Part shown: piece by piece, positions 38,601-63,200 of the stretch
Layout: each line of letters starts with the position of its first letter
Position numbering within the stretch: the stretch's first letter is position 1
Assembly (NCBI RefSeq): GCF_021134715.1
Contig: NC_060023.1
Location: 8,494,001-8,558,000 of the forward strand
Length of the DNA stretch: 64,000 bases
Direction: 5' to 3'
Origin: Daphnia pulex
Lineage: Eukaryota > Arthropoda > Branchiopoda > Diplostraca > Daphniidae
The notes under the pieces: model-generated
What the model was told of the DNA's origin: nothing
What the model saw: the letters and a program-made list of their open reading frames with translations, nothing else
Database searches by the model: none
Position numbers and translations under genes: made by a program

Positions 38601-41600
38601 TAGGAATTACGAGAAGTCGATTTTACTTGACCAGTACAACGCTGGTAGGGAAACGATGAAGTCAAATTTATAAAAGTTCACTCATAACTTAGTATGTTTT
38701 TTATTTAGCCGCTAGCTTGGAAAGCAACATCGTTTTCTCTCCAAATTCTTACTTGCCTCGTTCGGCATCGCTTAATTTGACTGTTGATATTTTCGGCCAA
38801 TCTGTTAATCTGCTTGAGGTATGTTACAGATTTTCTAAAAGAATTATCGTTTTCTTGAACGGCTCAAATCTTTTCTTGCTTTTAGTTTGATGGGCGAATG
38901 GAGGGATTCGAACTTTATATCGAGTCACTTTTCGGTCCAGGTGGTCTTTACCACCAGAAGGAAGTAGGATACATTTTGGAATCATTGCGCTCCAAAAGAA
39001 AAGTGACTCCATCTTCCCCTAACCAGCCAGATGCTGGAAAGCTCAAAGTGATGGGCGAGCAATTCGATGCTGCAAGCCGCTTTACAGATGAACCAGAGGT
39101 AAGGAGAAGAGCGCAAACGCATTCTGCAACATTAAATTATGATATTCATATATTACTTATCAATTATAAATTTTTAGATGTCAATGTCGATGAAGGTCTT
39201 CGGAAATGAAATAGGGTATGGACACTGGGAAGGTCGCAACGAGATTTTGGAACGCTTCCGAAAACTCAATCCTACTTCGAAACTCCACAATTTGATGAAC
39301 GGCGAAGAAAATCAGTTTAGCTTCGCGTCCCAGTACATCGATTCGACTCACACTATACCGTTAGGTGTCGGTTTGCCTCTCAACTTGGTGGCACAGGGTC
39401 AGGTGGTTGCTGAGATCCGCGGGAACATGCGGACGGATCTGAAATCAATTTTTTCAAGTGGCAAAGGAGAAGTCGTCTGGAAGGTCCATCCCAGCGCGGC
39501 AGTTATCTTCAACGGAGCGATGACTGTCGATGCTATTGCTGTAAAAAGTATGATTTATTGATTTCTTTTAATGATCAACAGATATTGTAAATTTGTTGGT
39601 CTGTTTTTAGCCGGAGTGACGTTGGAGACAACTCTTCACAGTTCAGTGAGCACTTCTGGTAAATTTTCGCTTGACGGACTGAGGTTATTCGACTTGCAAA
39701 TAGATTTTCCACAAGAGAAAGCCGAGATCATTACGTTCAAGTTAGTTCAGTTGAAATTGCACCGATCGTTATTTACATCACTAATTTTTGTCATTACCAT
39801 AAAGGAGTGATCTTACGCTTACCCATCGTAATGTTAAGACATCCCTGGATGGGATAGTCGAGAACCGAGTGGAAATGTCAGATTGCACAGGTGGTCTGAC
39901 CCAGCGCTATCTCGGCCTGCAGATTTGCTCCAAAGTGGGCTACCCGAACGCATCGGAACAGGAGAGCTTAGCATATTTCCCATTGACCGGACCCAGCCAT
40001 TTGAGTATCGAATTGACCAAACTCGATCCAGCAATAACGTCATATCGTTTCCTTCATAAAGTAGAAAATACCGAGGTATCCATATTTTCACTAGTCATCA
40101 ATAAGCTTGCGGAAAATGTGCAGTGATCATCATAGTCATGTTTATGTTGAATTTAGGCTATCAAATCATGGACTTTGAGTTTCCACCCAGAAGGAGCAAA
40201 AGAGTCGAAGGAAGTTGGACTCAAAGCTGGAATTGAATATAAAGAATCTGATTCCGGCTTTCTTGAATTTAACTTAATGCTTCCTAGCAGAAATTACGAA
40301 ACTAAAGGTAATTACAATTTTAGAACTATTGATTTTATTTTTACGAATAAATAAATGATTTCTTCAGGTACGTTCGTATGGAAGGAGGAGACGAAAAAAA
40401 TTGAAGCGTCTTTAATGCGCGATACCAAAGAAAAGTTGCTAGTAGTGAAGGCTGGTCTGGATCGATCTGCTTGTTCCAAGCAATCTGCTGTGATTTGCTA
40501 TCAGCCCACACTGACTTTGATCCTCAGCAACAAAAAATTAGTTAATCTTGATGGTAAACAACCTAAAGACTGGAAAAACTTATCTTTATTAGCTTTATCA
40601 CCTAAATTTGTATTGATAATAGGAAACATTAAATTGACGGAGAAACAAGGGAAGCGCAATTATGAACTGGGCCTCAATTCAACGATAGGCAGCTGGAGCA
40701 CTGTTTCTAAAGGCTATTACTTAATGGATGAAAAGTCGCATGTATCCAATTTCACCGTCGATTACACGTCCAATCCCAAAACCCGCCCAGAGAGGATTCA
40801 AATCGAAGTACAAGGATCTAATTTTATATTAACTAATCGCCGTCTAATCTTCGATACTTCTGTAATCACCAGATCAAAATGAATAAAGAGTCCTCGCAAG
40901 GATTTCGGCAGTTGGATATACACCTGGGAGTGGAACCATCCGCATATCCGAATCGAAATTTCGTCGGTAACTGGAGATTGCAACGAGGACTGGGGCATTT
41001 CGAAAACGTGTTGATGATGAACATCGGACCGATGCCTCGTGATAATCGCAATTCTTTAACGATTCACCAAGGATTCAGTTATTCTGTCGGCTTGAGTCAG
41101 AATTTGAAATTGAAAAGTCATTTCGAGATGACTCTGCCAGCCAAGGGGCTCAATGTCGGTTTGATTATCGGGCATGAACAGACCGATTACAAGACGGATT
41201 CGCTTTTTATTGGAAGATACGCACCTGGTAGCATTTTTAATTGTAGTATTTATTAAAACGTTACGTAAGTTTAAATTTTCTTATTTGTTTAGACAAGGAG
41301 CTCCAGTGTGGATTGCTGTTTGTGAAAACCCCAGGCGTATTGCTGAAAGCTAGCGGTGCTTTCAATTTAACTCTGCCATCACAACCGGTCATCAAATTGA
41401 ATGCCAAAATCCAGGAGCAATCTAAAAATAATTACAGGGTATAATTCAATTGTTGCTTATAACTTATTGAATCCTGTAATGTTAAACAAATTATAAATTT
41501 TAGGTTGACGCTGACGGAATTTGGGGACAAGACACGGATTTCCAATTAAGCAGTATGTACGATAACCAAGTACAAAGTACGCACTCCATTCAACAACTGA

Positions 41601-44600
41601 CTGTGGAAGTAACCGGTTCAACTATATATCCAACCGAATTCGTTTATACCTATAAAACCAATCACACTGCTTTAGAAGCTAAAGTGCAAGTATGTTTAAA
41701 ATCAATTAACCAAAAATTGGAATCATTTAAATTTTTCCTTTGTCTAGTCGAGTTATGGCAAAGACGCGGTTTCGTTCTATGTCTTGCAAGAAAACCCAAC
41801 CAAAGAAGAATCAAAGATCGCTACTAAAATTGGTTACTTAAACTATCTTCACACTGCTGATGCTTACTGGAAGGATCTTCCAGATGGCAAGAAAGGAACT
41901 CTGGACATTCACGTTGACAAGTATGAATATTTCCGGCTAAACTAACGGACTAAAAAACAAGGAAAATCATGGACGATACTTTTGTTTTAGGGTCATGGAC
42001 GTTAGAAGTGTTTTTAGCACAGATGTAGCAACAAACGGACGCCGTGATGTCTCTCTGGACGTGCAGTGGGACCCCAATCGCAATCCTCAAAAGAAACTCA
42101 TTATCAAAACCACATTCGAACCTTCTAATCTTAATCCTCGAGACTGGACAAGTGCCGTCATTCTCAGTTATCCTGGCTCATTTATCAGAGGAAATTTCGC
42201 CGCTCTTACCCAGAGTACATAATTTTATTATCAAATCAATCAGAAGCATTAATAAAATATTTTTATCTGAATTTTTAGAAAACAACCGTTCCCTATCTGG
42301 CACTGTTGATTTAGGATCAAGGAAAACCATAAGCTTTCTAGCTGCTTCAGTCCGGACGGAAAGCGCATTGATGAATGAGATAGTTCTAGAAACTCCTTTT
42401 GATGGATGGAAATCCAACAAGGCCCTTTTCAAGTAATAGATAAAACATTTCGATATCATATAAAAATGTAACATTTAAACTTTTTTTTTCAATCCTTCAG
42501 GTCGGAGACTAATAATCTGCGTCATAAAACCCAGTTGACTTCAAAGTGGGGAACAAACAGCCATTTTGAAGTTGGTGTGGATGCTCGAATTGAGAAAAAC
42601 TCGGTTTCAAAAAGCGCTGAAGTGACACTTGATTTGAAAAGTAGCTTCGACCAACTTGAAAACTTTAAAATCGCAGCCAAAGGTGAACTTATGCCTAAAG
42701 TATTGGAGAATTCCGTCAAAATTCAGGTATTTATTCTTACATCCTTGTGCGTTTGAGTCGAACGTAAATCACGCGACTTTATTTTACAGTGGGCAAAGAA
42801 TCAGGAAATAGTATTTGGTACGAATTTCGAGTGGAGTGTTGATGGTCAGTTTATGATAAAAAGTAATGCGAGTTTGACGACACCGTTTCCGCAGCTGAAG
42901 CAAGTTAGTATTGAGCTCCATCACAATACGGAATGGGACTCGGCCCAACTCTTCGAAACCAGAGGATCGTTGATTTTAAACGAACTCAAGTACACAGCCG
43001 TGGTCAAAGGTATAACCAAACCATCGAAAGAATACGAATTTCTTAGTTTTCTATCTCATGATGTCTTACAGGAGAAAATCCCGGATCGCACAAGCGCTGG
43101 GAAGCGACAGCAATTTTGACGACCCCTAATCCCACTTATGCCGTGATTGGCTTGTCTTCTCAGTACACTGCTGACGATAAGAAACCTTCATTTGATTTAC
43201 AAATCAACTGGCCCGAAAAAGCGGTTGGAATTCATGTTTCTGCAGACATTTTTAGCGAAGGATATCATCGAGGGCGTTTTCATGTGAAAACTCCCTTTGA
43301 ACAACTTCGAAACTTCTCCGTCGACGGATCTTTCGCGCCACCTTCTGTCGATCCTTACGTAATAATTATTAAGACCGAATTAATGGAAGGCGCATAGACT
43401 TATTTAACTTATTGCTTACAGGTGTTCAAGCTTGACTTGGGAACCAGATGGAATGAAGTGGAATACGTAACGTTTAATACAACTTTCGAAGCTGAGTCCG
43501 CAATCAACGGTGACATATCGGCTGACCTCAAAACGTCGATTCCCAAACATGAAAATTACGGAACCAGATTAAAGCTAAATGTTGATCTTTCTGAACTTCC
43601 GTCTGCCAGCACTGTGATCGTTGTTACTTATCCGTCGAATCGGGTATAAGAGCTCTATTTATTAGTCCGTCTCAAAATAATTACACATGCATACATTTTT
43701 CTTTCAGATTGGATTTAGCCTCAACGGATCCATGGCCGAAATAGAACATGGTTCCTCGACTGACATCATGGCTACTCTTGACATTGCTGATAGTCCGAAA
43801 ATAACGATCAATATCACTCACGAGACCAAGGGCTTAATGGATTTCAAGACGACAACCAGTTTGTCAAAAGGCGAGCAGTTCTATAGTCTAAACAGTTTAG
43901 TGACAACAACGGTGAGAGTCTATTGAAGTTTAGCGCAAGTAAAATTAATAACCATTCAAAATTCGGTGACAGGATGATGGACAATTTGTCGCTTCTTTGA
44001 ACGTAGTGACGCCAATAGAACGACTGAGTGAATCAGAAATTCGAATTCGCTATCTCAAGAAGATTGTTGATGAAGCCAATATAGAACTGGCTTTCGAAGC
44101 AGGTGCCAAATGGAAAGGATTTAACCATGAGAATACAGTATAAAAATCTTTACAATTTCACTAGATGTGTTGGGTGAAATTCATAATTTTTTTATTTGTT
44201 GCTTTTTAGTTATCCGGTCGTATCCATTACTTGAGCTCAGCGGAACAGTTAGAGGACTTTATGGAGAAAACCACGACCAACTTTGAGTTCAAAGTCGTCA
44301 GTCCGTTGGAAATCCTTCAGCGGCTGATACTCAAGGCTAAACTTGTCAATGAAAACTCTGAGATGTTGCCAAAACTGGAGGCGGTGTACAATAATCATAC
44401 CATGACAGTCGGAGGAAGCATTAACGTATAAAATACTTTGATTACTTAGACGCGTTCAATATTTTTAAATGTATATGTTTTTGCGCTTGCAGTTTCTCAG
44501 TGAAAATGCCAACATAGTGATAACCAGGAAAACTCCATATCAGCCAAAGGCGATGAGCATTCGGATGAATTCGACTTGGGCTGTGGAGGACGACAAGATT

Positions 44601-47600
44601 CTAGTCAAGGGAATAGTGTCAACAAATCTGCAAGGATTTAACCGCATTCCATGGAAAATTGATATCACCTTTGTGAATTCTGAAGACGACGAAAACGTCT
44701 GGGAAAGACTGGTGACTGGTGAAGCACGCCTTACCAACTCTCAACTAATTTTATTGAACGCTGCTTGGCTTCCTGCCAAATTGACGGCCAACATAGCTAC
44801 GCCTTTTTCATCGTTTAAGAATGTCAACTTGACCGTCGGCTACGAGCAGTCGATCGATTCGTCAACTTCTATAACAGCTGAACTGTTTATCAACGAAAAT
44901 CTTTCAGAACTGACGGGCACCTTTGATTGGCCGGAGGAGAATACGATACCAGTGTCGACCCAACTAACGCTCAAAACACCTTATGACTACGAACAGTTGA
45001 CACTATCTTGGGAATCCGCTGATCCACGAGTAGCAGCTGAACTATTGGCTTCTTGGAACGAGAAAAGCCAGACGAACAGTTTACAAGTTCGTTACAACTT
45101 GGATTTATCCACTTTGGAGAAGATTGATATCGATTTGAAACTGACTCTCCATGCTGAACCACAGGAGGACGTGTGGGCGTTCCGGTTTAATTCTGATACG
45201 TCCGAAAAATTCACTGGTTTGATGTCACTCACTACTCCGTTGGCGGACTTCAAAATGGCAGAAATATCGGCATCCAACACCGGCAAATCTTACACAGTTT
45301 TGGTGAATCTTGACACGAAGCCCGTCTCGGGTAAACTTCGAGCAAGTTTAGTCGAAGATAATCAAAGTGGCATATCCATTGATACAAGTGTGGAAGTCCT
45401 GCAGTTTTTCCAGTTTGCCTTCAAATTCGCCATTGATGGCAAGTACAGCGACGTAAGCCTCGATACTTCTGCCGTTTGGGATCCGATACTCGTTCAATGG
45501 GGAATTCAATCCAAATTCAAGCGCAGCGGATGGAGCAAATACTCATGGAATACGACATTGTCATCTGATTCCGATCGAAAATGGCTACTCGACGTCGATG
45601 TGGATTTTAAGGATATTTCCAGTTTTTTCAACCACAAGATTCACTACGAGGCCGTTCACGACAAGACCTTGTACAGCACATACGGTTCTCTATCGATAGA
45701 TGACGTCCACTACAAGGGGCAATTAGGAGTTGATTGGGGCGCTTCGAACCCGATCGAGTTGAAATTTAATAATAAGAAGATTGCCAAGCAGCTGGGAAAT
45801 TCTGTCATTGAACTGATTACTCCGTGGTCGAAAGAACCGTCACTCGTCGTCGACGTCACTGTAGATGCTCGTAACCAGCCCGTCGAGTTTAAGGTCAACG
45901 CCGAAGTGGCAGACAGGATCGTGATCGTCGGCATGGACATCAAGTTTAATAGCTTCAGCTCCATGGGAGCCAAAACTAACAGTAAGTGTCATTTATCATG
46001 TGTCATTTATCATAATAAAGTGACGTTCTTATTTACATATATCTCAATATCTAATTTTATAGTAATAACAACTAAACCGTGGCTGCCGATGGCTTCTCTA
46101 AACTTCCATACCGACAGTGGTAGAGATCCGGTTAACCCTCGGTTTAACGGATGTTATGTGCTGGAATGGTCGGGTGGTTACATGCTAGGCATTAGCGTTT
46201 TCCGAGAGGAAACGGACAGAGTTTCCGTCCTTCCAGAGAAAAACGTCAATGGTCTGGTTCAGGTAAATCTTTATAAAATAATCCATTTTTAAAAAGAACG
46301 TCTTTTTAGTATTCTTGGTCATTGCAGGTTAAGTCATCGTGGAACAAGGTACCAGAAGCAAGCATCCGCTACTCACGATTGTCTAGCCCAACTGTAACAC
46401 AATCGGGAATCACAATCAGCCACAATTTCACTGAAAAGATTAAAGTTGCCTACAATTCCACCGACAAATCATCGGCCGGCCACGAATCGAAGGATGGCCG
46501 CTTAGAGTTCAGCGGAACATTGTTCTCTGGGGGATTTGCCTTTGGCCGTCATTTCAAGTACAGTGGAGGCCAAGACGGTGAAAATTTGCCGCGAAGTTTG
46601 CATCGCATTTTAGAGATTTATGAAATTGGAAGCCGAAACCAGTTTACTCTGCGTGCCGAGGTTTTAGAGAAAGAAACATTCACTGGTCAAGAACATGTTG
46701 TCAAGCTATCTTCTCCGTATCGAACCATCGATTTCTCTACCCGTTACGATTTCCCCGACGGAGTTTTCCGACACGGAACTGAATTCCGCTGGAGGCCGGA
46801 CGCCAAAATTGCCTACGACATTGAAATTGAAAACAAGACCACGGCAGCAGCAAATGATTACGTCATGACGACTACGTTCATCACACCCGTACGCAGCCTG
46901 GGTCTTACTGGAACGATGCGCCATACAAAACGCAATTTGCGAGCCGTTAGCGAAATTGTTTGGGATTTGAAGAGAAGAGAAAGTGTGGCAAAGGTTACCG
47001 TCACGTGGGAAAATACCACCAAGACAAGGGACGTTGAAGCTAATCGCGTAAAAGTCGCCTTCTCTCAAGGTAAATATTTTATAGCTTACGGAATAGATAG
47101 ATAGTGGAGAAATAATACTTAAAATTTTGCTTGTTTAGGAAATTTGCCGCAAGAATTGGCGATCCTTACCGAAGTCCATCGCAGTGCAAAGCATCCACTT
47201 ACTATGCACACGGAAATCCAGTACTCCAACGAACCAAAGCGAAATCTTTTGATTGACACTGTAGTCACCTCTCGTAGTGGTAATTACCGGTGCGACATGA
47301 ATATGACTCATCAAGCCACCAAGTTAGAACTTCGTCAGACACTGGAGTATGAGCGCACCGCCACCGGCCGTGCCCAGTTGACGCACTTTTTCTCTCACTC
47401 GAACACCGACTCGGAACTCATGGCCCTCGAGCACAGACTCACAGTTGATCAACAAGATAAAAAAATCATATTCACTGCCTCGTCTCCAGCGATGACGCTA
47501 AGGCATCTCGGCCAGTTTACTCAGTCGGGCAATAATTCCCTCCTATCGTATGAAATTCAGCAGGACGATGGAATGCCAAGGACCGCCGAGTTCTCTTTTG

Positions 47601-50600
47601 GCAACCACATTCCTTACGCCCACTTTGTAGCTCAGTTTGATCCAGAAAATCAAAAGGTGAGAAACGAGTCCCAATTGATTAATGAATTTACATCTTTGCT
47701 CAATTTTCTTGTTATCGAATGTAGGGACTCCATATGAAAGCCGGAATGCCGGATCGGCGTCAAGCGATTTTTGAGCTTTTCAACACGGAAGAACAGGAAC
47801 GCATTCCGTTCATTGATTTTGCATTTCGATTGAATCACTCGCGTTTGGTAACATCCAAAACTCAATGGCCGACTGATTGGAAAAATCGTTTGTACCAAGG
47901 AGTGGGTCGGGTTCGAGGTTCCATCGCATCGACGGCTGATCAGTGGGTGTCAGCCTTCGTGCTGAGTTCCTTTTCCGAGACGGTCGGCTCCATTTTGACA
48001 ATCGGAGATGATATTGCGATTGTGCTGGACACTGCATTGCTTAATTTTAGCGAAGAGATCGACAAATTTCAGGAGGATGCTGAACTGATGAAACAGAACA
48101 TCGTCGATGGCTACAACTCTAACGCTTTCTTCGCCAAACTTGTTGTTGAAATGGGTGGAGCTATTGTTCAAGATATGCCGTTCGGCTCCTACGCTCAGAG
48201 TTTCGTCACGTTCATTGAGAAGACGGGCAATCGGATTTTAAAACCCTTCACCAACGAGGATGACAGCTTTAGTCGTTGGCTAGCCTACGTGGAACAATAT
48301 TTCAGTGCATTATCAGAGACCGTAACAACTTGGATGGGAGAGCAGTGGAAATGGCCGACCGCAGGATCTTCTAAAGTGTTAGCAGAAATCAGCACAGTCT
48401 TCCGCAAAATCGCAGAAGAATACGATCGCGTAATGTTTAATATTATTGTTACTGATTAATTTGTATTTAATTTTGTTTTGTTTTTTTTCGTTGTTAGTTC
48501 GTCAAACATTTTCAGAAGAGCTTCTGGGAGTCGATGCCTGAAATTGGAGTACCGCTGCGTACTTTATTAAAGAACTCTTGGAATGACGTATATCAAGTTA
48601 TCCGCCCTCTTATTTTACGCGGGTTTGTCACCGTTGAAGCAGCAGCATGGAATGTGATGAAAGAAGTCTTGGGTAAACTAATTTGAAGAACGCTTTAACG
48701 AACATTTTTACAAATATATTCCCTCTCCTCTTTGATTACAGATTACTTTTACAAGCATCGAGAAGCTATTGTCGGGTCATCCTACTTTCAAAAGCTTTCG
48801 CTTTTACTGGACGACCTCAAGCAGTTTTATTTAGACATGCAGAGCACTGACTGGCCATCCAGAGTACGAAAATACGTGATTCGTGCAGGCCAGTTTCTCC
48901 AACAAAAATACCTGGACCTGGATGACTACCTTTCTTGGATCATTAAAATCAAATCGGAGATTGCCGTGATTTATCAAGGATTCTTGATGCAAAATCCCGA
49001 ACTACAGAAGGGAGCGGAAAACTGGCAGAAATTCATCGCTTTTATTCAGTGGAGCTACAGCCATCTTGGCATTAACCAAAAAATGTACGATCTGGTGGCG
49101 TTGCTGCGCGAAAGAGGAGCAGAGTTATGGCGACAGACGGTCACAGATGCACAAATGAGACACACTTTACAAAAAACCATGTTCCGTTTCAATCCGGAAT
49201 TGGGATCAATTGAGCTGGAACAGAAATTGCCCTTCCCTTGGATTAGTCTGGATGAAACTCCACTTTTCCATGAACTGCCCGAGATTCAGAAAGTCCGTTC
49301 ACTGTTGTCGCTGTTCAAGTCTTCCAACACCAGCACAATGGACCTGGTTTTCTCCTACTTACCTAGGCAACAACAACTGTCAAGTTTATTACCTCCGTTT
49401 AAGAGTATAACATGATTAAATAATTTTTTAAATCAATTCTTACTAACTTTTTGAAATATTTCATATGTGCAGGTTCTGCTCACTTAGTTGGACTTCAGCA
49501 CTTTACAACGTTCGATGGCCAACACTTTGATTTTGTTGGACCTTGCACGTATCTCCTCGCCCGAGACTTTTTAACAAACAACTTTACACTAGCTGTGCAA
49601 TATGTCAGCTCACGCGGAAAGCCTTACGCCTCAGTCCTTCAGCTGATCATTGATGATGTTCAGTGGGATTTAGATCTAGCCAACCGCACCGTACGCGCTA
49701 ATGGAATCAGCCAAATGCTTCCGTCTTTTGGTTCCTCTACTAACCGTGACACTGCCGCTTTTTACGAAAATGGGAAATTTGTCATCGAATCATTCGCAAA
49801 AGGAATTCGACTGGAATGCATCGCAGCTTATGACTCCTGCACTTTTACATTATCTGGTAATTTAGGAAAAATGTGTTAGCGAAATGTTTGCTAAAAATTG
49901 TCCTTTTACAGGTTGGTACAACAACAAAGTCGCTGGATTGCTGGGTACCATGGATAACGAGCCAACGACCGATCTTATTCGGCCGAATCGTGTCGTGGAC
50001 TTGGATTTAACTTCTTTGGCTCGTTCCTGGGATGTCTCATCTAAAAAAGATTGCAAGACTGTTGACAATTTTGCACGTAAAAGCGTTCCGTCGGACGATG
50101 GTCTGACTGAGATCTGCGCTAGCTTTTTCCAGAGCCAAAGGTTTGCATACAAATTCCATAAATATTATTTCCCTCTATTATTTAATCCTTTGTATATATA
50201 GGTCTACATTGAAAAAGTGTCTATCGGTGATTGACCCATCACCTTACTTAAAAATGTGCCTGATCAAGTCTCGCCCCAGAGGGAATGCCCAAGACGGTTG
50301 TCATGCCGCGGCTGCTTACGCTTCGGCTTGTGCTGCTAAAGGTGTGCTGCTCCGCATTCCCTCGCAATGCGTCCGGTAATACATACGGAGAAGTTAGACC
50401 TTTAGACGTTAGATGACGTAATTTACTTTTTTTTTATACAGGTGCCAGTTGGACAATGAGTTGCTTTCGGAAGGAGACGTGAAGAATATCAACGCGGATA
50501 AGCTCAATCGTCCATCATCTGATGTGGTTGTTCTACTTGATCTGAAAAAATGTAATGAGCCGGATGCCACGTCAGCCCGATTCTTGCCATCGCTAATCAA

Positions 50601-51809: not shown

Positions 51810-52741
51810 AAGTGTTAATTTTAAAGTTGAGAGTGAAGAGAAATAAAGCGAATAATTCAATTGCAAATAAAAAAACAAGGGAATCTTAACAACGGAGCTT
51901 TTCCCAAATTTGCGGGGTAAAGTGTATTGTATTGGCTACTTTTTTGTCTTTAAATCACCTTTGAAAAGGTTATTCGGTGCACATTATACCCGACATTATG
52001 CGACTGTTATGTCAAATGAAATAATATGGAATACAGAATGACCTTTTCCAAATTGATTAAAACACTTTGAGATAATCTAAAACAAGCAAAAGAAATTTGT
52101 TTAAAAATTACGAAAACGACTCACTAGAACGCAGTGATGCAACTAAAATAAATAATAATTCCAATATCAAAATCCGGTGTCCACAGAAAAGATACAATCA
52201 GATTCAATTTTGAAAAGTGATATCGAAATGAACGAATTAACCTCTTTAATTACGTCGTAAATAAATTACTTCGATGGGATTTAACTTTCTATTAAGGTAT
52301 ATATAAGATTACTCTATATAAATAGATAGTTTGACAAGACATTGCATTGCATGGAGAATCTACTACTCCAAGTATAGAAATTGGTTTCTCCTCTTACTAG
52401 ACTGACATTACGTCTAATTAAAATTGGTTCCAAAAAGTAGTAGTATCGTATGAGAATGTTACACGACCTAAAATTAAATGATGATCATACGAAAAGCTAG
52501 TTGCTGCCTTTATTTATATATAGTCAGGGTCATATTGGTGTGAAGCCGAAAGAGAGGGAGATAAAAATTTAAACAAATAAAAAGAGAGAAAAAACCAGTG
52601 AATTTTTTGAAGGTCACCGGAAATATTACGTAAAAGTGCCAGACAGTGGTGTAGAGGGTAGGGTGAGAATGGCAGATCTCATTATCAAGTAGTTTCAATA
52701 GCCGCAAGGCTTAAGAGGTGAATCAGGCTGAGAAAAAATCG
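51810..52741. other. Intergenic region upstream of the Tyr-rich gene
   Basis: AT-rich DNA with the apolipophorin 3' UTR at its left end. No gene is supported. Confidence 0.5.
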
Positions 52742-52776
52742 TATAAAAGGAGAGAGAAAAGGCGGTAGACGTCAGT
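52742..52776 (+). promoter_or_regulatory. TATA box plus TCAGT initiator of the Tyr-rich gene
   Basis: TATAAAAG at 52742-52749 is followed 30 bases later by TCAGT at 52772-52776, the arthropod initiator consensus. The pair sits about 85 bases upstream of the start codon. The same arrangement recurs in the duplicated copies at 58100-60290, intact in one and decayed in two. Confidence 0.8.
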
Positions 52777-52858
52777 CGAGTGAGCATCTCCGACACGACA
52801 ACTACAGAGCACTATTGGTCACCAACTGTATTCTCCATCGTATTACCAGTTCGCAATC

Positions 52859-54296
52859 ATGGGTAAATATTCATGTTTTTTTTTTAGTCGTGAATGAATT
52901 CTATGTTGTATTTAGTTGTTAATTCTCCAGTTCTAATTGAAAATTTATGTTTAAATGTATAAATTGTTTAGTTAATTATGGCGTCGTGCTGCTGTTGGGT
53001 GTTGTATCGTTGATGGCTGGGTCGACCACGGGTGTACCGATGTCTCCTGGGTACGGTGGATATTCTTACCAAACCACAACGGCGAAGGAATACTACCCCA
53101 CGCAGCCGCCCTACTACACAACAACATACGTTACACCAACCTACTACACCGAGGCCCCCAAGTACTACACCACCAAGGCACCTGAGTACTACACCACAAC
53201 GTACGCTGCCCCTAACTACTACACCGAAGCGCCAAAGTATTACTCTGCCCCGAGCTACACCACAAAAGCGCCCGAGTACTACACGACCACGTATGCTGCC
53301 CCAACTTACTACACCGAGTCTCCCAAGTACTACACCACCAAGGCACCAGAATATTACACTACTACCTACGCTGCCCCATCTTACTACACTGAGGCTACCA
53401 CGTATTACGCTGCTCCTAGCTACTACACCGAAGCGCCTAAGTACTACTCTGCCCCGAGCTACACAACCACAACTGAGGCTGCCAAGTATTACGTAGCCCC
53501 AACTTACTACACAGCGGCTGCCCCTTCGTACTACGTTGAATCAAAATACTACACCGAGGCTCCAGTTTATTACACCACAACCTACGCTACACCTAGCTAC
53601 TACACCGAAGCGTCACAATATTATACCACGAAGGCATCAGAATACTATACCACATCTTACGCTGCCCCAGTCTACTATACGGAAGCCCCTAAGTATTACT
53701 CAGCCCCAAGCTACTACACCGAAGCGCCAGTTTACTACACCAAGACCGCAGACTATTACACAACTACCTATGCTGCTCCAACTTATTACACCGAGGCTCC
53801 TAAATATTATTCAGCACCAGCTTACTACACCGAGGCACCAGTCTACTACACTACCAAGGCCCCTGAGTACTATACTACAACTTACGCTGCTCCGACCTAC
53901 TACACCACTAAGGCTCCCGAGTACTACACCACAACCTACGCTGCTCCGACGTACTACACTACCAAGGCCCTTGAGTACTACACCACAACCTACGCTGCTC
54001 CGACGTACTACACTACCAAGGCCGCTGAGTACTACACCACAACCTACGCTGCTCCGACGTACTACACCACCAAGGCTCCAGAGTACTACACCACAACCTA
54101 CGCTGCTCCAACGTACTACACCTACACCACCAAGGCCCCCGAGTATTACACAACTACCTACGCTGCCCCGACTTACTACACTGAGGCTCCAAAGTATTAC
54201 TCGGCTCCGAGCTACCAAACTGAGGCGCCGAAATACTACACTACAACATATGCTGCTCCAATCTACTACACTGAAGCCCCAAAGAAGTATTATTAA
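52859..54296 (+). CDS. Secreted Tyr/Thr/Ala/Pro-repeat structural protein
   Basis: Two exons (52859-52862 and 52972-54296) give 442 residues. Exon 1 holds only ATG plus one base; the splice gives MVNYGVVLLLGVVSLMAGSTTG, a clear signal peptide. The rest is low-complexity repeat built from YYTTTYAAPTYYTEAPKYY and YYTTKAPEYYTT units, ending EAPKKYY. There is no cysteine and no folded domain. Regular Tyr pairs and Pro turns suggest an extracellular structural material such as cuticle, eggshell or adhesive, perhaps cross-linked through tyrosine; this is inference from composition. The promoter is strong and TATA-driven. Repeat units differ at synonymous sites more than those in the downstream 24-bp array, so this copy seems under selection. 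Related decayed copies lie on the opposite strand at 58100-60290. Confidence 0.88.
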
Positions 54297-54860
54297 CCGT
54301 AGCAGCCTTGTTTTAATTCACGCGGTGATGCAGTTTTCAATTTTATTCGCATGTTCATATTCGTTACAAAATTTATCTGAATTATCTGCCTTGTCTATCC
54401 ATTCACAAGTCATTCGGTATGGATTGGTTCCTCTTTCAAATTTTTCAAAAATAAATTATTTATGTGGTTACTTCTTGTATCTGATCAGTTTCGGTAAATG
54501 TCGAAGGTATCGTAATAGCTAGTCGTGTGAAATGGTAATTGATAGGATAGGCTGATTGAACATTAGCACCGACGATTTTACAATCCTTATTGAGCCATTA
54601 GGCTGTCTCTAGTTTCCGCTCTTCTCAGAAACAGTTTGTGGCGTTCTATGGACTGTTCGATAAACTAATGGTCTTTAATATTTGTAACATGTCTGTTTAG
54701 AGGGAAAAAGAAAGAATTTCTGAGATGAAGAGAAAATGCGCTGTATTATCATTGGAGAACACTTGGTACAACAGTAAGATATAGTGTCTGGAGTTCATGG
54801 AATAGTCAAGTGTTTGTATTATATTTTTTAACTCATAGAGAAACAAATAAGTTATATTAT
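54297..54860. other. 3' flank of the Tyr-rich gene
   Basis: AT-rich sequence, presumably the 3' UTR and spacer up to the inverted-repeat block. Nothing else is seen. Confidence 0.5.
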
Positions 54861-55032
54861 AGAATTGTGTTTTATTTTCCCACATCCAACCACAATTCCA
54901 CCACAGTTTATATATTACAACATACACATACAATAATAGTTAACCCGTTGGCTGCCACGCCATACAACCCGTAGGCTGTTTTTCTACTACTCGACGCGCC
55001 ATGTCCCAAGGATCCATTGAAGGTGGGACTTA

Positions 55033-55118
55033 TTGGAGTTCTACTGTCTGATATTTTAAATAATTTTTAAAAATTTCTTTGTATGCGACAGTAGAACTCC
55101 AACGACAGTAGAACTCCA
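55033..55118. repeat. Hairpin and direct repeats of GACAGTAGAACTCCA
   Basis: TTGGAGTTCTACTGTC at 55033-55048 pairs with GACAGTAGAACTCCAA at 55087-55102. A second direct copy lies at 55104-55118, and a shorter GTAGAACTCCAATAA follows near 55146. The stem is 16 bp with an AT-rich loop of 38 bases. Confidence 0.85.
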
Positions 55119-55688
55119 TTTTTACATTAAAAATACCCGACATGTAGAACTCCAATAATTTGAGCTGTGACTGTGCAACCAACTTAGGATTCAAAACGCA
55201 TTACCAGATGTCACTAGTGTTGCCGATGTTGTTCTTACATCGTGAAACGAGGCGAAAAGGGAAAAGGGTGAAACAAATTGCAGCTAATTAATACTTATAT
55301 TCCTGTGATTTCATATACCAAATTGAACTTTGTAACTTATGTAGGTTTATCTTGACATAGCTTCCTTATTTTTATACTGTACCAACTTATTTCTCCAAAT
55401 TCTAGATGCATACTGTCTGTCATTCCAACAAGTTGACTTAGCACTCAGTCACTTTCCCTCAGATTAGACGCTCATGTTGTCAAAAGCCAAAAACTCATGT
55501 TTGAAGCCCACATGTAGTGGAATAGAAATGTGCCCAGTGAAGGTATTTTCCCATTACTGCAACCAGACCATTACAATTTAAGATTTTCTTTTAACATAGG
55601 TATCCTTGCACATGAACCATAGGATCTTTTCTGAATCTCACAATTTTGGTGGTGTACCCTGCAACAGCATGTTTGTTGTTATGGATGT

Positions 55689-55872
55689 TTTTACTTCTGT
55701 TTCGAAGGCAAGAAGAAGAGAAAGGTACAGTTTAATTTCTCATAAGTAAATTTATGTCTATTTGTAAATAATGTAGAGAATTTCCTTTTCCCATTGCTAC
55801 TTAGAGTTTCAGTGACATGAAGAGTGTGGAGTGAATAACCTGCCATGTGTATTGCACATGTACCGGATCTGC
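55689..55872 (+). repeat. Dispersed repeat copy 1 (inverted partner at 60994-61186)
   Basis: About 185 bases match the reverse complement of 60994-61186, with long shared blocks such as GAGAATTTCC, CCCATTGCT, TTAGAGTTTCAGTGACATGA and GTGTGGAGTGAATAACC. The strongest part is about 55740-55870. Both copies code a similar peptide in one frame (MAGYSLHTFHVTETLSSNG), but no intact gene surrounds either, so this is more likely a repeat family than a gene pair. Confidence 0.8.
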
Positions 55873-56833
55873 TTGATGAAAGTCTTACTAAATTCATCAC
55901 CTGCATGATAAAGGTAAGCATCAATACCACCTATCACCCCGCTACTGCAATACTTCATGACACTTTCTTTAGCATCAGGAAATTTATATTAATGTGGAGT
56001 AATGCTGTTGGTTGCTGTGAATTCCATTTTTACGATTTTTTCATCATGAAAATCAGTGTGCTTCTTAGAAAAGGTAAAGATTTAAATTTTTTTTTAAATT
56101 TTTATATTTTCATTAATGTAACACATTTTTTCTACAGAGCACGCAAGATCCCCACGGACATCCTTGAGCTATTGCTGGATTTTGTCCATGACAGAAGAGG
56201 GACTTTCATCATGCTCCATCCTTATCTTCCCGACTTGCGCTCATCCAGCTTCACTGCTTCAGTGCTTCTTATGCTGCAAAACAACTTTTCTTGCTTCACT
56301 GGCGAGTTGGATCACTTCAGTTGCTGTGACACACCTGCAGTCACTCACCACGGGATTATGGCCAGGTACCGGACAATTGACTTATTTTCGTAGATTGTCC
56401 ACTAGTAATCTATTTGCGTAAAACTCTCTGTCTGTGTAATAATTCCAAAATCAGGCCCTTCTTGTGCGTAAAAGACATGTTAGTGTGTTACTTGGACGTT
56501 TCTTTTTTTCTAACGCTAGATGGCTTTTCGAAAATTGTCAGCTGTCAAAACAGTCAGTTTCAGTTACTTTGAAAATCTCTTTAAACATTTATCGGCAGGT
56601 GTTGTGTGGAAATTTTTTTTAGTGGAAACTGACGATAACTATTCCTCCAACAATGCTCACTTGTTAGATTTTAGTCTATGAGTTTTTTTTTCTACTTCCG
56701 GTTTGCTCGTTTCAGTCAGTAGTTCAGTAAATATTCATTCGAGGAGCAAAAGAACCACATAATCGTGATCCTCGTCGAATTTGTGGTAAAGTTCATGTTA
56801 TCTTTTTTACGTATTCGTACTTCCGGTTTCGAA

Positions 56834-56865
56834 AATTTTCCTGAACTATATAGTTCAGGAAAATT
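56834..56865. repeat. Perfect 32-bp palindrome
   Basis: The two 16-base arms meet with no spacer between 56849 and 56850 (core CTGAACTATATAGTTCAG). With one mismatch the symmetry extends to 38 bp (56831-56868). It lies inside the inverted-repeat block. Confidence 0.95.
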
Positions 56866-57308
56866 CTCGATTTTGGCCAAATTTTGGATTTCGTTAAAAT
56901 CACACCTAATCGACCCCAAATTTCATGGAGATCACGAATATGTGGTTTACTTTGACGACAGCTCAATGGTTGAGACGCTGTGGTTACTTCCGGTCTACTT
57001 CCGGAATTTTGAAAAAAAGACTAGCAAGTGAGCTTTGTTCTGTTTACAGTTCTCAATATTGCAAGCTTGATTTTAAGTGTAAAAAATTGCATCTTTAAAT
57101 CTTTGAGCTTATAAACCTGACTATTGTTTCTATCTGTATTATGTAACTTTTATTGGCATGTCACTTACTAAGAATTGTTTTCTCTTTATTTAGGTAATGC
57201 AGAGAAAACGTCTAGAAGATGGACACCAAAACGTCGTCGGTATCTCCAAAATGTCAGCGCGGATCATCATTTGTTGTTGGTATTATATTTGTGTTCGTGT
57301 TAGTTAAC

Positions 57309-57575
57309 CCGTTGGCTGCCACGCCTTTGTTTTCCCCTAGCTCCTTTGCACGGGCCGCGCTGTTCGGTCTCGTGGTTTACAAGCCGCGGGGTCGGAGAGT
57401 CGCCAAGCCCAAAATTTGCCGCAAGGCGCCTGTTTCAGGCAATGCACCATAGTTCCCCCTTTTCAGCACGGACTTGTCAGCAATGGCAAGTCCCACTTGG
57501 TCATGGATCCTTCAGACGTGGCGCGTAGAGTAGTAGAGAGCAACCCACGGGTTGTATGGCGTGGCAGCCAATGGG
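57309..57575. mobile_element. piggyBac-like MITE, 267 bp, flanked by TTAA
   Basis: CCCGTTGGCTGCCACGCC at 57309 and its inverted partner GGCGTGGCAGCCAATGGG ending at 57575 match at 17 of 18 positions. TTAA flanks both ends (57305-57308 and 57576-57579). This is the size and structure of a non-autonomous piggyBac-type element. It has no coding capacity. Its right half is also present, inverted, at 54944 to about 55030. Confidence 0.75.
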
Positions 57576-57674
57576 TTAACTTAATGTATGTAGGCCTATA
57601 TTAGTATGTATGTATGTGACTGTAAAATGTGGTGGAATTGTGGGTGGAGGTGGGACAATATATAACGCAATTCT

Positions 57675-58090
57675 TTAAGTCTTGTTTAGAAATTGTATCG
57701 TTTTTTCACTTGCCTATTACTTATAAGATTTGAAATCATCAACATCCAAATATTTCTTATATTACCCTTGAAACGTCATCGTTCAACCAAAAGAACATGT
57801 GCGTATGCAGAGTAACTAAGGCAGTAATCAAGCATAAAACAATTTACAACTCGGCATACTGGCCTTGAAGAAATTAAACGCCAAAAGACACCTGTCGCAA
57901 TGTTGACAGGCTTGAAGTTACTAACAAAATTCTTAGAAAAGAGTTACCCGTATTAAAACTTTTATTTTCTCATTTAAGATCAACAATTAATTCCCAGAGA
58001 CCAATTACCATGAAAATAACCGATAAATATAAATAACCTTGAGTAGAAATTTCGGCTCTAGAAAATAAGGAATTTCTTTGTAGAAAATTG
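57675..58090. other. Spacer between repeat block and Tyr-rich pseudogene cluster
   Basis: AT-rich DNA in which I see no gene or repeat. Confidence 0.5.
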
Positions 58091-58099
58091 AGGAATCGT

Positions 58100-59150
58100 A
58101 GTTTGGGGTGTTTATTCGGCTGCGTTAGTGGTGTAGTAAGTCGGGGCAGAGAAATGCTTTCAGAGCTTCGGTGTAGGTAGTAACGTAAGTAGTGGTGTAC
58201 TACTCCGCTGCCTTCGTGGTGTAGTACTCCGCTGCCTTCGTGGTGTAGTACTCCGCTGCCTTCGTGGTGTAGTACTCCGCTGCCTTCGTGGTGTAGTACT
58301 CCGCTGCCTTCGTGGTGTAGTACTCCGCTGCCTTCGTGGTGTAGTACTCCGCTGCCTTCGTGGTGTAGTACTCCGCTGCCTTCGTGGTGTAGTACTCCGC
58401 TGCCTTCGTGGTGTAAGCTGGAGCAACGTAGGTTGTAGTGCAGTACTTGGGCGCTTCCGTTGTGTGCAAGTTAGATCCTCGGTGTAGTAGCTGGGAATAG
58501 AATAATACATGGGAGCATTATTATAGTTAGCTGGAACATCGTAGGTTGAAGTCAATACTCAGGAGCCTTTGTGGCGTAGTACTGGAGACCTTCGTATAGT
58601 AAGAAAGTGTTGACGTTATTGTTTAGTAAGCGACGTGGTGAAGGCAGTGAAGCTCGGGGAAGAAAAATACTTCGGAGCTTCTGCGTAGTAACATCGGGGC
58701 AGCACAAGTTGTGGTGTAATACTCTGGAGCCTTGATGGTGTAGCACTTAGGAGCCTTAGTGCAGTAAGCTGGAGCAGCGGAAGTTGATGCTAAATAGTAA
58801 GACGGCACGGCAGTGTTGTGCTTTGGTACCCGCCATACCAAGGAGACATTGGTACACCAGTGGTCGACTCAGCCATCAACGATATAACACCCAACAGCAG
58901 CACTACTCCATAGTTTACTTGGCAATTAATAAATTTTAACATTAATTTTCAATTATGGTACTGGTATATTAACAAATAGAAAAAAGGAGAGTTGATTCAC
59001 TACTCTTTGAAAAAAATGTTTACCTTTATTTAAAACTTGTAATATGACGAAGAAGTTGATGACAAAAAGTGCACGGCAGTTCCTGTTGCTGTAACGGAGA
59101 TGCTCACTGGGCTGCTGAATTCTTTCACCTTTTCGCTCCTTTCATACGAC
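58100..59150 (-). pseudogene. Tyr-rich protein pseudogene, copy A
   Basis: A decayed duplicate of the gene at 52859-54296. Promoter and leader lie at about 59085-59150 (GTGAGCATCTCCG conserved, TATAAAAGG changed to TATGAAAGG). At the exon 1 position near 59027 the ATG has become AAA, although GGTAAAC, the splice donor, survives. Exon 2 begins near 58925 and still encodes VNYGVVLLLGVISLMAEST and TTGVPMSPWYGG, but the frame is lost soon after. Shortened YYTTKAPE-type coding runs in shifting frames continue to about 58100, including the nine-unit 24-bp array. It cannot make the full protein. Confidence 0.8.
58201..58415 (-). repeat. Nine identical 24-bp tandem units coding YYTTKAAE
   Basis: Units start at 58201, 58225, 58249, 58273, 58297, 58321, 58345, 58369 and 58393. 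All are identical except the last base of the final unit. On the minus strand each codes YYTTKAAE. Perfect identity inside an otherwise decayed pseudogene points to very recent expansion, or to an assembly artefact. Confidence 0.97.
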
Positions 59151-59159
59151 TAGATAATA

Positions 59160-60060
59160 AATAATTTGTATATTTATTGGATGCCATATTAAAACTCCAC
59201 ATAACAGAATATTTACCGTGATATGTAGTGGTGTAGTACTCCAGTGTCTTGGTGGTGTAGTGTTGGGGAGCCTCGGTGTAATAAGCTGGAGCAGCGTATG
59301 TTTCAGTGTAGTACTCCGGTGCCTTGGTGGTGTAGAAATTGGTGCCCTCGGTACAGCACTCAGGCGCTTTGGTGTAGAGTCTCGGGGCAACATAAGTTGT
59401 GGTGTAATACTGAGCCTTGACACTGTAGTTGCTGTTGCCGTGTCGCGATAATAGCAATTGATATAAACTCTATGTAACAGAATATTTACCCATGATATGT
59501 AGTTGTGCAGTACTCCGGTGCCTTGGTGGTGTAGTACTTCGAAGCCTCGGTGTAGTACTCGATCCTTTGGTAGTGTAGCTCGGGGAAAAATAATATTGCG
59601 GGGATTCGGTGTAGTAGCTCAGGGCAGCATCAGTGGTGGTATAATAATCTGGAGCATTGGTGCAGTACTTGGGGGCCTCGGTGTAGCAACTGGTCGTGTC
59701 GTATGTAAGGTGGCACCGTTTCGATTTGTTAGTCGCCATACCCAGGAGACATCGGTACACCAGTGGCCGACCCAGCCATCAACGATACAACACAAAACTG
59801 CAGCACGACGCCAGAGTTTGCTAGACAAATAATTATTTGAACATTATAACTGACATTTTAACAAATAAAAAGTTGATTCACAACTCCATGTAAAAATGTT
59901 TACCCATGATATAAACTAGCAATTCGACGAAGAATGCAGTTGGTGACAAATGGTGCACGGTGCATTGCAGTTGCTTTTGCTATATCGGAGATGCTCATTT
60001 GACTGATTTCTTTCGCCTTTTCTTTGCCCTTATGTACGACTAAACAGTAGATAATTAAAC
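59160..60060 (-). pseudogene. Tyr-rich protein pseudogene, copy B (with chimeric fragments)
   Basis: Leader and exon 1 (ATG at 59905-59907, then GGTAAAC) are intact, but the TATA box is degraded to ACATAAGGG. Exon 2 begins near 59829 and reads NSGVVLQFCVVSLMAGSATG then VPMSPGYGD, followed at once by a stop. Tyr/Thr repeat fragments continue in mixed frames to about 59240. Twice (near 59497 and 59220) repeat coding runs straight into exon-1/intron-1 sequence (CATATCATGGGTAAATATTC and CATATCACGGTAAATATTC). These chimeric joints suggest unequal recombination between tandem copies. If spliced, exon 1 would yield only a peptide of about 26-30 residues. Confidence 0.75.
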
Positions 60061-60099
60061 AAATAATATGCAAAAATATCTGGCATGTTAACAAAGAGA

Positions 60100-60290
60100 A
60101 AACAAAATAAAATTGATACATAACTCCATATAACAACAGAAAATTTACCCATGATTGAGAACTGAAAATACGATGAAGAATGCAACTGATGGCAAATAAG
60201 AAATAGTACACTGCAGTTGTTACCATGTCGGAGATACTCGCTCGACTGATCCCTGTCGACTTTTCTCTCGCCTTTTATACAACTTTTTCT
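60100..60290 (-). pseudogene. Orphan promoter and exon 1 of the Tyr-rich family, copy C
   Basis: The reverse complement contains TATAAAAGG (60271-60279), TCAGT (60249-60245) at the right spacing, GAGTATCTCCGAC and an intact ATGGGTAAAT exon 1/donor (ATG at 60150-60152). No exon 2 of its own follows. The next sequence on this strand is the promoter of copy B. The unit boundary falls within intron 1, so the duplication unit broke there. Confidence 0.75.
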
Positions 60291-63200
60291 CACCCCTCCT
60301 CTTATGCCTTGCGGTTATTTTACCTTCTTGATAATGATGAAAAACGTCCCGTTCTCACCCAACCTCTACACCACTGCATGAAACGTTTTGTAATGATCTC
60401 CATGTCCTTCGATTGAAATGCAAACTCGCCTTTCCTTCTGAAAATGACGTTGCTGGGGATGGGTCTACAAAAACCAATATCAAAATGAAAACCAAATAGC
60501 TTGCCCTTGCGGCTATTGTACCTGCTTTGATAATGATGAAACACGTGTCATTCTCCCCCAACCTCTACATCACCGCATGCCAGTTTTACGTAATGTTTCT
60601 CGTGACCTTCAAGCGTGAAGGACATCCTGTCTGGACAAACTGGCCGACCTGTCTGCAGGTTGACGCATGCAAAAAACACAACGAAGACATGCAAAAAATT
60701 TATCAAATCTAAAACTCCTCACATATGTTGACTGCAAAGTTACCTCGAGTATGAGTGAGGATTTCCTAGAGTCCAGAGCTATATTATTCTAAACTGATAT
60801 CAAGACGTCACAAAAGGCCAGTAACAGCAACCAGTGCCAACTCCATTGACCCCAAAACAAATTTAATAACATTCGTGTTTGCACATCTGTTGGAAAGAAT
60901 AAAATGATAATTGGCTGTATGGATTCAAAAAATAAAATTGTTTCCTATTATATATCTCATATCTGTACTCATGTACATATATGTTTTCATGTACAGATCC
61001 AGTACATGTGCAATAAACATGGCAGGTTATTCACTCCACACTTTTCATGTCACTGAAACTCTAAGCAGCAATGGGACAAGGAAATTCTCTATGTTATTTA
61101 CAAATTTACACAAATTTATCTATGAGAATTAAAACTCTACCTCTCTCTTAGCTGGGTTGCCTTCAAAACAGAAGTAATAACAGCCACATTTCAATTATTA
61201 CTAAAGATAACAAACAGCCGCCATGGCAATAACATGAAGTACTTCATGACAATCTAACCTAAACACAACACTGCGCCATCTATTTGCTTTGACTGAAACT
61301 CCCAAAGAACACGCAACCGCCGGATTACCGGATTAATTTTGCAATCACCAGAATAATTTTGAATTATAATGACAAGTCAATTAAAGGATTGATTAAAATT
61401 TTTATTTTAAAATTCTACACTGAAACTTATATCAAGCGCATTGCTATCGCGGCGATTCCTCCAGGCTATTTGACGTGGCTAGAGACCTCGTCTCTAGACC
61501 TCAAAGATTACATCTAGTTGCGTTCAAGAAATTATCTTTCCCGTCGTGAATAAGTTGATGGCCGCCACCTTTCACTTTCTCTCTCCTCTCAGCATCTGCC
61601 AGACATCTTTTAAGCTTAACAACATTTCTAATCTCTCTTGCTTTCTCTATTTGTCTGTCTCTGGGACAGAGTTAAGAGTTTTAGGATTTAGTTTTATGTG
61701 TATTGCGTCATCTAAAAGACGCTACTGCATACCGACACCTTTTGAGCTGACTCTGAGGCCTAAGAGGAATTCCAAAATCTCGTCTTCTACTTATACATAC
61801 AATTTCGATCCAGCTTGTGATGATTGTTGTTGCAGCCATATTAGGACATGGAAGGTCGGAGACTGTAAAAGTAGAGAGAAAGGTAGAGAGAATGCGATGA
61901 ACTAAACTATGTAGCTTCTACTTCTACTACCTGTTGAAGCTCGATTGCGTGTAATCGCATTAACATAAGAAACCGGTTGCTGTGAGAGTATATACGCCGA
62001 ACGATCTGAAACATTAACCAGAAACACGGAAACAAGACCCTCCCGAAGGTGACGTTTGCCGTCTTTAAGATTTAGAAATGAAACCCCTTTTCTGGTAGAA
62101 AGAGAGTAAAATAAGGTCTGGCCAAGGCCGAATCTCCGACAAATAAGACCGGAACAAGTAAATAGGTACACCCAAAAACCAGCCCATAAAAAGAATGAAA
62201 TCAAACAAGGAAATGCAGAACGTCCGTCAACAAAGTTGTCCAATAATAAAAGAAGAAAAACACAAACCTGAACGACGAAGGTTGTTGTCAAGGGCACGGT
62301 TCGTTGTGCTCTACGAGATCTATATGTCACCGCTGCTGGGATATCACGTAATGATTAGATATACACATCCCATCGGAGGTTTGTTCTTGAAATTCTTTGG
62401 ATAAATGTAGCCGGAAATAAAAAGCGATTGTAGCCGTTTATAGGCAATGTACAAGGACACTGTATTCAAGTGCCGAATGTCAAAAAAAAAATTTTCAAAA
62501 ACAAATTGTGTGTGTCATTCCAAGTTATACAATGCAATTCGAATTGGATGGAAATTATAAAGACAAGACGAGGGGAGAGGAGGGGTGAAAAAATAAAGAA
62601 ATATGGAAGCGCAGCACCCAAAAAAAAAAACATTGTTCACGCACGCACATATCAGCAACCCGAGGAAACACGTTTCGTGTTATTAAACAAAAATAATTTG
62701 TTGTGAATTTTCAATATAAAAAAAATGACAATTGGAGGGAGGTGATTTGAAAACAAAATTTGGGTAAAAACATCAAAAAGAGAAAATGAAAATCAACGAA
62801 AAAAAATGTGGGATGGAATTATATAAAAATCTTGTGTGATTACAAAAATCTCGTTTTGCCGGTGTGTGAACGAAACAGAACGCAGTCGTCATTTTTTTCC
62901 CCATGAAATTCGTACGCTATGATATTTAATATAGGTCTCGTCATCTTTAAAAAATAAAATAAATGCAAAACAAAAAAAAAAAAAATTATAAAAAACACGC
63001 ACTCGTCCAACTTGCAGCTTTGCGCCCTGCGCCTCTTCAGCATTTCCCGTGTCTTGACAAAAATGTTTTTTCGTTTCCCTTTATTTTCCACTCTGCTGGG
63101 AGTGTAAATGCCTCATCGGAAAAAAACACCGTTCCTAATTAAATTTATTTGCGTTTTCTCGAGAGAGAAAAAAAAACTAATTGGCCGCACAGATTCGCTT

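Follow-up and report, generated by a model that had tools for sequence, protein, structure and literature searches.

A gene for a tyrosine-rich protein, U1, lies on the plus strand of Daphnia pulex contig C7 (52742-54296) and faces three related minus-strand leaders, C, B and A; the stretch analysed around it, hereafter the window, is the 64 kb of C7:8494001-8558000, in a genome of 133.19 Mb and 13 contigs. We consider this locus, with good probability, to be a worn representative of a family of palindromic gene pairs that is dispersed in the genome and whose arms are kept alike by gene conversion. A complete unit would have two inverted arms of at least about 2.5-5.7 kb that meet at a short spacer or none. 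Read inwards, each arm would open with an upstream module and a TATA/TCAGT promoter with its leader; exon 1 (ATGG) and exon 2 would follow, separated by a short intron, and about 2 kb of inner arm without coding sequence would complete it. Exon 2 of each arm, whether intact or broken, would code for a repeat protein that is rich in Tyr and starts with a signal-like stretch, and arm-to-arm gene conversion would copy its frame, intact or not, onto the opposite arm. In the window, the left inner arm appears to lack about 2 kb and the arms would belong to different subfamilies, so that an intact gene faces a dead arm. Below, W marks a window coordinate, C1-C12 are contigs and L-numbers are family loci elsewhere in the genome (L5354 and L5556 being L053+54 and L055+56).

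The first-pass annotation of this stretch had proposed to follow the leader plus exon 1 motif through the genome. When up to one mismatch was allowed, the 21-base leader motif gave 225 + 207 = 432 matches and its reversed control 0 + 0, and three promoter patterns gave 120 places (controls 0). Family loci are dispersed over 12 contigs and stand mostly tail to tail: among all 120 places, which cover three promoter variants only, leader neighbours within 25 kb were convergent in 35 cases, divergent in 1 and tandem in 1. The convergent pairs are spaced 6.3-20.2 kb apart (median 10.1 kb), and 30 of the 35 carry identical variable core-promoter strings. Neighbouring signal exons leaned the same way more weakly, with 36 of 53 convergent, 15 tandem and 2 divergent. 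The opposite orientation of U1 and its relatives, earlier taken for an inverted “orientation switch”, is therefore the usual state of the family. The central sequence 56140-57200 has 40 strong matches in the genome, its own place included, of which 24 were counted as inverted pairs 2.3-3.0 kb apart; a listed leader lies within 10 kb of 28 of the 40, and 12 are without one.

The union of loci is incomplete. It took in 73 of the 100 places listed by the first motif search (the other 27, without the purine-rich stretch and likely due to chance, were left out), 39 of 40 from a second search (the 40th was already covered), promoter-pattern places not already present, new places among 100 listed of the 432 leader matches, and the 40 strong matches of 56140-57200. 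Collapsed to 170 loci on C1-C12, this incomplete list is spaced more evenly than chance within dense runs: the smallest gap of all is 41 kb, gaps below 60 kb number 7 of 121 against a simulated mean of 22.8 (minimum 10 in 2,000 simulations), and the coefficient of variation of the gaps is 0.59 against 0.83 simulated. The only divergent pair in the 120-place count (C1:4614650-4615700; L005 and L006) has promoters about 400 bases apart and both frames open (347 residues), identical over the first 60 codons.

Fifteen convergent pairs were picked from hit lists, mostly for matching promoter strings, and at 12 of the 15 in this non-random pick the arms were 97.9-100% identical over at least about 2.5-5.7 kb, often running to the edge of the fetched sequence. 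Identity was 99.80% in L039, 98.52-99.50% in L040, 99.13% in L041, 98.26% in L042, 99.65-99.77% in L043, 99.81% in L044, 99.26% in L045, 98.97% in L046, 100.00% in L049, 99.64% in L051+52 and 99.90-99.97% in L055+56, while L053+54 reached 99.96% in its outer 2.5 kb and 97.9% over the whole. Strong likeness between the two arms of many loci is not predicted by simple birth-and-death of genes. Palindromic chimeric long reads are a known fault of assemblies, and false inverted copies of that origin would account for L045, which has no spacer, and for L053+54, which aligns in one piece straight across its centre. We find such an artefact hardly credible for the family, as spacers of 94-1,202 bases separate the arms at the other 10 of the 12 near-identical loci, several loci have spacers in common, 11 of the 12 arm pairs fall short of full identity, worn palindromes such as that of the window exist, and the 64 kb window held no inverted pair of at least 100 bases outside the locus among the matches listed, with the low-complexity filter on.

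The centres of the palindromes are shared between loci. Spacers are homologous at 80-91% between L046 and L049 and at 82-90% among L040, L041 and L042, and inner arm ends coincide in L045, L046 and L049, whereas inner arms diverge between loci by 6-11% (L045/L046/L049) and 10-19% (L039-L042). Because centres and inner ends are shared while the inner arms differ by 6-19%, the palindrome would precede the divergence of the loci, and the palindromes seem to be older than their arm identity, the arms having been made alike afterwards. If a single gene had instead been duplicated lately and in inverted form at each locus separately, through foldback or template switching, the arms would be alike simply through youth, and this accounts for both the arm identity and the locus-specific outer ends without gene conversion. 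This we judge unlikely, as it leaves unexplained the homologous spacers and inner ends of loci that have themselves diverged, and the palindrome layout that the window and L053+54 have in common on different contigs; many independent events with the same centre are improbable. Gene conversion between the arms would thus be the likeliest and simplest cause of their likeness. Spacer orientation, which varies between loci, was considered as a sign of crossover between arms and dismissed, as a symmetric locus carries no other mark of orientation.

The outer ends behave differently from the centres. At four loci they fall at locus-specific points, some 400-1,300 bases upstream of TATA, and the four palindromes with both ends read showed neither a target-site duplication (0/4) nor a common terminal sequence, the longest strings shared by their flanks being 3-5 bases and not at the ends. 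In the best matches among those listed, homology between loci sets in at points anywhere from 11 to about 1,400 bases upstream of TATA, and a repeated module forms part of it. A DNA transposon of the foldback or another type, with captured gene sequence and with terminal inverted repeats that form the arms, would suit the 12 contigs, the inverted ends and the many copies, as well as the outer end common to the related loci L022 and L033, at about 404 bases upstream of TATA. On the variable outer ends, the lack of target-site duplications and the variable homology starts, however, an ordinary transposon was rejected; the one central open reading frame (ORF) tested has no Pfam family, and the transposon reading as a whole appears distinctly improbable.

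The window locus has the following parts, those of the gene itself being predicted.

52604-52741, plus strand: left-arm upstream module common to other family members (best BLAST matches start at 52587-52609, the five furthest reaching 136-155 bases from TATA, among the matches listed)
52742-52776, plus strand: U1 core promoter, with TATAAAAGG at 52742 and a TCAGT initiator-like motif at 52772, read from the sequence (C7:8546742 in the promoter listing)
52777-52862, plus strand: U1 leader and exon 1, coding part ATGG at 52859-52862, splice sites predicted from GT/AG and frame
52863-52971, plus strand: putative U1 intron 1, 109 bases, from GT/AG and frame
52972-54296, plus strand: U1 exon 2, a signal-like start (MVNYGVVLLLGVVSLMAGSTTG) then Tyr-rich repeats, stop TAA, 442 residues in all
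54842-55031, plus strand: left copy of the middle-arm block whose mirror lies at 57480-57676; among the 14 matches listed, 7 other palindromes resemble it at 80-85% (both arms for 6 of the 7), and L5354 does so at 78%
55032-55171, no strand: junction, with about 1.9-2.1 kb of left inner arm missing relative to four complete palindromes (W55031, then W55172-55226)
55172-55230, no strand: approximate palindrome centre (W55134-55600 matches the centres of L039, L040, L041, L042, L043, L5354 and L5556)
55227-57676, no strand: right inner arm, including a conserved non-coding block at 56803-57041, 81-87% to the right inner arms of L039, L041, L042 and L5354
57707-59160, minus strand: unit A, its leader lacking TATA, its start codon lost and its repeat-bearing exon 2 broken (leader alignment, BLAST)
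59480-60045, minus strand: unit B, leader without TATA, ATGGGTAAA retained, early stop in exon 2 (leader alignment, motif search, BLAST)
60139-60279, minus strand: unit C, TATAAAAGG (60271-60279), TCAGT, leader and ATGGGTAAA donor, no exon 2 of its own (leader alignment, promoter search, BLAST)
60280-60713, minus strand: right-arm upstream module, 84% to both L5354 arms up to 60713, with upstream homology of 382-384 bases to five loci among the matches listed

The alignment of all four leaders runs from the TATA region onwards and takes in TCAGT, GAGCATCTCCG and the ATGGGTAAA donor, and inverted identity inside the locus, at 80 nucleotides with 80% and 129 nucleotides with 85%, is well above what chance would give. 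At the TATA position, U1 and C have TATAAAAGG, B has TACATAAGG and A has TATGAAAGG, leaving a TATA box in the outer leader only of the C-B-A series; ATGGGTAAA is intact in U1, C and B, and AAAGGTAAA stands at the same place in A. Under U1-type splicing, a stop follows after about 31 residues in B and after about 43 in the signal region of A, and C is succeeded by the leader of B with no exon 2 between. The first-pass annotation had described one intact Tyr-rich gene with at least three opposite-strand relatives that have lost TATA, start codon and exon 2 frame in just this distribution, and its description is borne out. An additional exon-1/intron fragment lies near 59486.

That annotation had further read the distribution as a local birth-and-death series, in which minus-strand tandem duplicates decayed in turn beside a surviving parent. 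C, B and A do differ in their broken parts, and broken copies abound: in a set of signal exons formed by the 150 top-scoring of 784 candidates, and hence leaning to the best-kept exons, 135 lie in frames shorter than 300 residues and only 15 in frames of at least that length, 10 of them on C7. However, over about 3 kb the right arm (57707-60713) matches each arm of the L053+54 palindrome at C2:0.90 Mb collinearly and at 81-84%, C-B-A order included, so the layout is inherited, common to both contigs and older than the locus, and the right arm is closer to L053+54 than to U1. A local series is thus largely refuted and very improbable, while birth-and-death does apply at the scale of the genome, as the rarity of long frames shows. 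The same division applies to the notion of a repetitive structural-protein family, which stands insofar as this is a multigene, repetitive, secreted-looking family with one intact copy and dead relatives on opposite strands, and falls as regards successive local stages of decay.

Apart from the missing left piece, the whole window locus is collinear with four palindromes (L039, L041, L042 and L053+54), and its similarity to other loci also spans the common palindrome centre. Opposite the W55031/W55172 junction, these palindromes carry a stretch running from 2255 to 4154 in L041, 2431 to 4324 in L042, 3017 to 5020 in L039 and 3429 to 5529 in L053+54. Among the matches listed, homology to other loci continues upstream past TATA in both arms, for about 138-155 bases at U1 and about 384-434 at C. 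The two arms can be aligned with each other at about 67-73% in long pieces (among the matches listed), which is below the near-identity of about 97% or more seen elsewhere, and the left inner arm is partly missing. The best matches of the left arm over the U1 gene, among those listed, are L029, L013 and the C1 pair at 70-76%, and this arm seems to belong to another subfamily than the right one. The locus looks like a worn palindrome without about 2 kb of its left inner arm.

In the arms of the window, 54940-54961, 57304-57325 and 57558-57579 carry TTAACCCGTTGGCTGCCACGCC and its near inverse, resembling a small TTAA-flanked inverted-repeat element present in both arms. The non-coding inner-arm block at 56803-57041 is 93% alike to L042 and carries CCGGAAGT motifs, which we take to be ETS-like, together with a strong dyad (TTTTCCTGAACTATATAGTTCAGGAAAA); the overlapping stretch 56790-56905 folds well below shuffles (z -4.7). 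A known RNA or a tRNA was considered for the conserved block and rejected, as its relatives gave no Rfam match at gathering score (L039, L041, L042 and L049) and no tRNA (the same four and L046).

Over the first 60 codons, the ratio of nonsynonymous to synonymous differences per site (pN/pS) is 0.17-0.56 among the intact copies aligned (L005/L006, U1, L010, L015, L028 and L029; L013, with 395 residues, was left out) and 0.51-0.77 between intact copies and the broken L019/L020; the pooled value, 0.49, also takes in L019/L020, and one divergent locus enters it several times. In the broken palindromes that were compared, most of exon 2 is less alike than promoter, leader and inner stretches. In L044, L045, L046 and L049, core promoter and leader are 0.987-0.991 alike, against 0.961 for exon 2, and their inner arm is 0.908-0.929 alike in bulk but holds one 200-base stretch at 0.985-1.0; in five broken palindromes of another type, the promoter windows (0.84-0.85) and most windows of an inner non-coding block (0.83-0.975) exceed most exon 2 windows. 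This conservation leads to a further reading, that the palindromes are regulatory units, in which inward promoters on both arms would yield overlapping or hairpin RNA and, from it, small interfering RNAs tuning the few intact Tyr-rich genes; we hold it to be rather unlikely.

Several observations weigh against arms kept alike by gene conversion as a general rule. Homogenisation is not universal, as the arms of L047, L048 and L050, 3 of the 15 pairs, have diverged and those of the window are not near-identical; 12 of 15 is not an unbiased rate, since pairs were chosen by promoter match, and the arms, often reaching the edge of the fetched sequence, all come from one assembly. No conversion tracts were observed, and the GC content of the inner arms (0.354-0.393 at ten loci) does not exceed the mean of the window (0.399), so there is no sign of the bias towards GC that other palindromes are reported to have. 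Signal exons in equal-score opposite-strand pairs lie in frames of at least 300 residues about as often (7 of 73) as the others do (8 of 77; Fisher p = 1). On these counts we rejected the idea, suggested by the window and two other C7 loci, that lost symmetry shields an intact gene from conversion with a dead partner. The centres of L047 and L048, two of the diverged pairs, contain long simple repeats reading as KKDRM, KKDDR or FFHSI runs.

The predicted reading frame of U1 runs for 442 residues without a stop, 438 of them from exon 2, and is 26% Tyr. Nothing in Pfam or NCBIfam matched the exon 2 protein at E up to 1, nor did any PDB sequence at E up to 0.1, and so no known cuticle or adhesive protein family in these three collections matches it. 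A Tyr-rich repeat behind a signal-like start suggests, in an arthropod, extracellular cross-linked material, and the product is probably an extracellular structural or cross-linked protein. Arthropod cuticle proteins with the tyrosine motifs GYR/YLP (PMC2932725) are likewise extracellular with conserved tyrosines, whereas U1 exon 2 is without a Pfam match and its repeat differs by eye. Elsewhere in the window, inspection by eye suggests that the ORFs at about 36400-49900 may be exons of a single, very large protein of lipid-transfer type with a von Willebrand D-like stretch at its end, and an ORF at 19628-20587 contains a long run of a 10-residue repeat, its opposite strand also having open frames.

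Sex chromosomes are the main place where large palindromes are known to keep their arms alike. In mammals, arm-to-arm gene conversion is described as the cause (PMC3723533, PMC8981503, PMC6790999). The palindromes of this family resemble them in the very high identity of inverted arms with genes inside; arms of about 97% or more around a short spacer or none occur at the 12 of 15 pairs elsewhere (a non-random pick), and arms younger in sequence than the palindrome are indicated, indirectly, by the shared spacers and inner ends at 6-19% divergence. They differ in that a single gene family occupies many loci on 12 contigs, the arms measure a few kb, most of the genes are broken and no rise in GC is seen. 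Palindromes have also been described, in small numbers, in the genomes of some parthenogenetic animals, with gene conversion as a proposed role (PMC7953838), and share with ours the inverted gene-bearing blocks; a table in that paper gives at most 19 per genome, whereas here there are dozens of convergent pairs from one family, and its text names D. pulex among three genomes that could not be screened for lack of annotation. Drosophila hairpin-RNA loci (PMC10292708, PMC10317233) similarly hold inverted copies of gene sequence related to genes elsewhere, but here both arms have inward promoters. Among the open-access records searched, we found no earlier description of these palindromes or of this Tyr-rich protein family.

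Dozens of such palindromes in one family, on many contigs of a small animal genome, would provide natural replicates for measuring arm-to-arm conversion. The family could show how conversion decays after the loss of symmetry, and whether its effect is to preserve genes or just to propagate broken ones; the window locus, which has kept the layout in arms no longer alike, would be a useful end point of that process.

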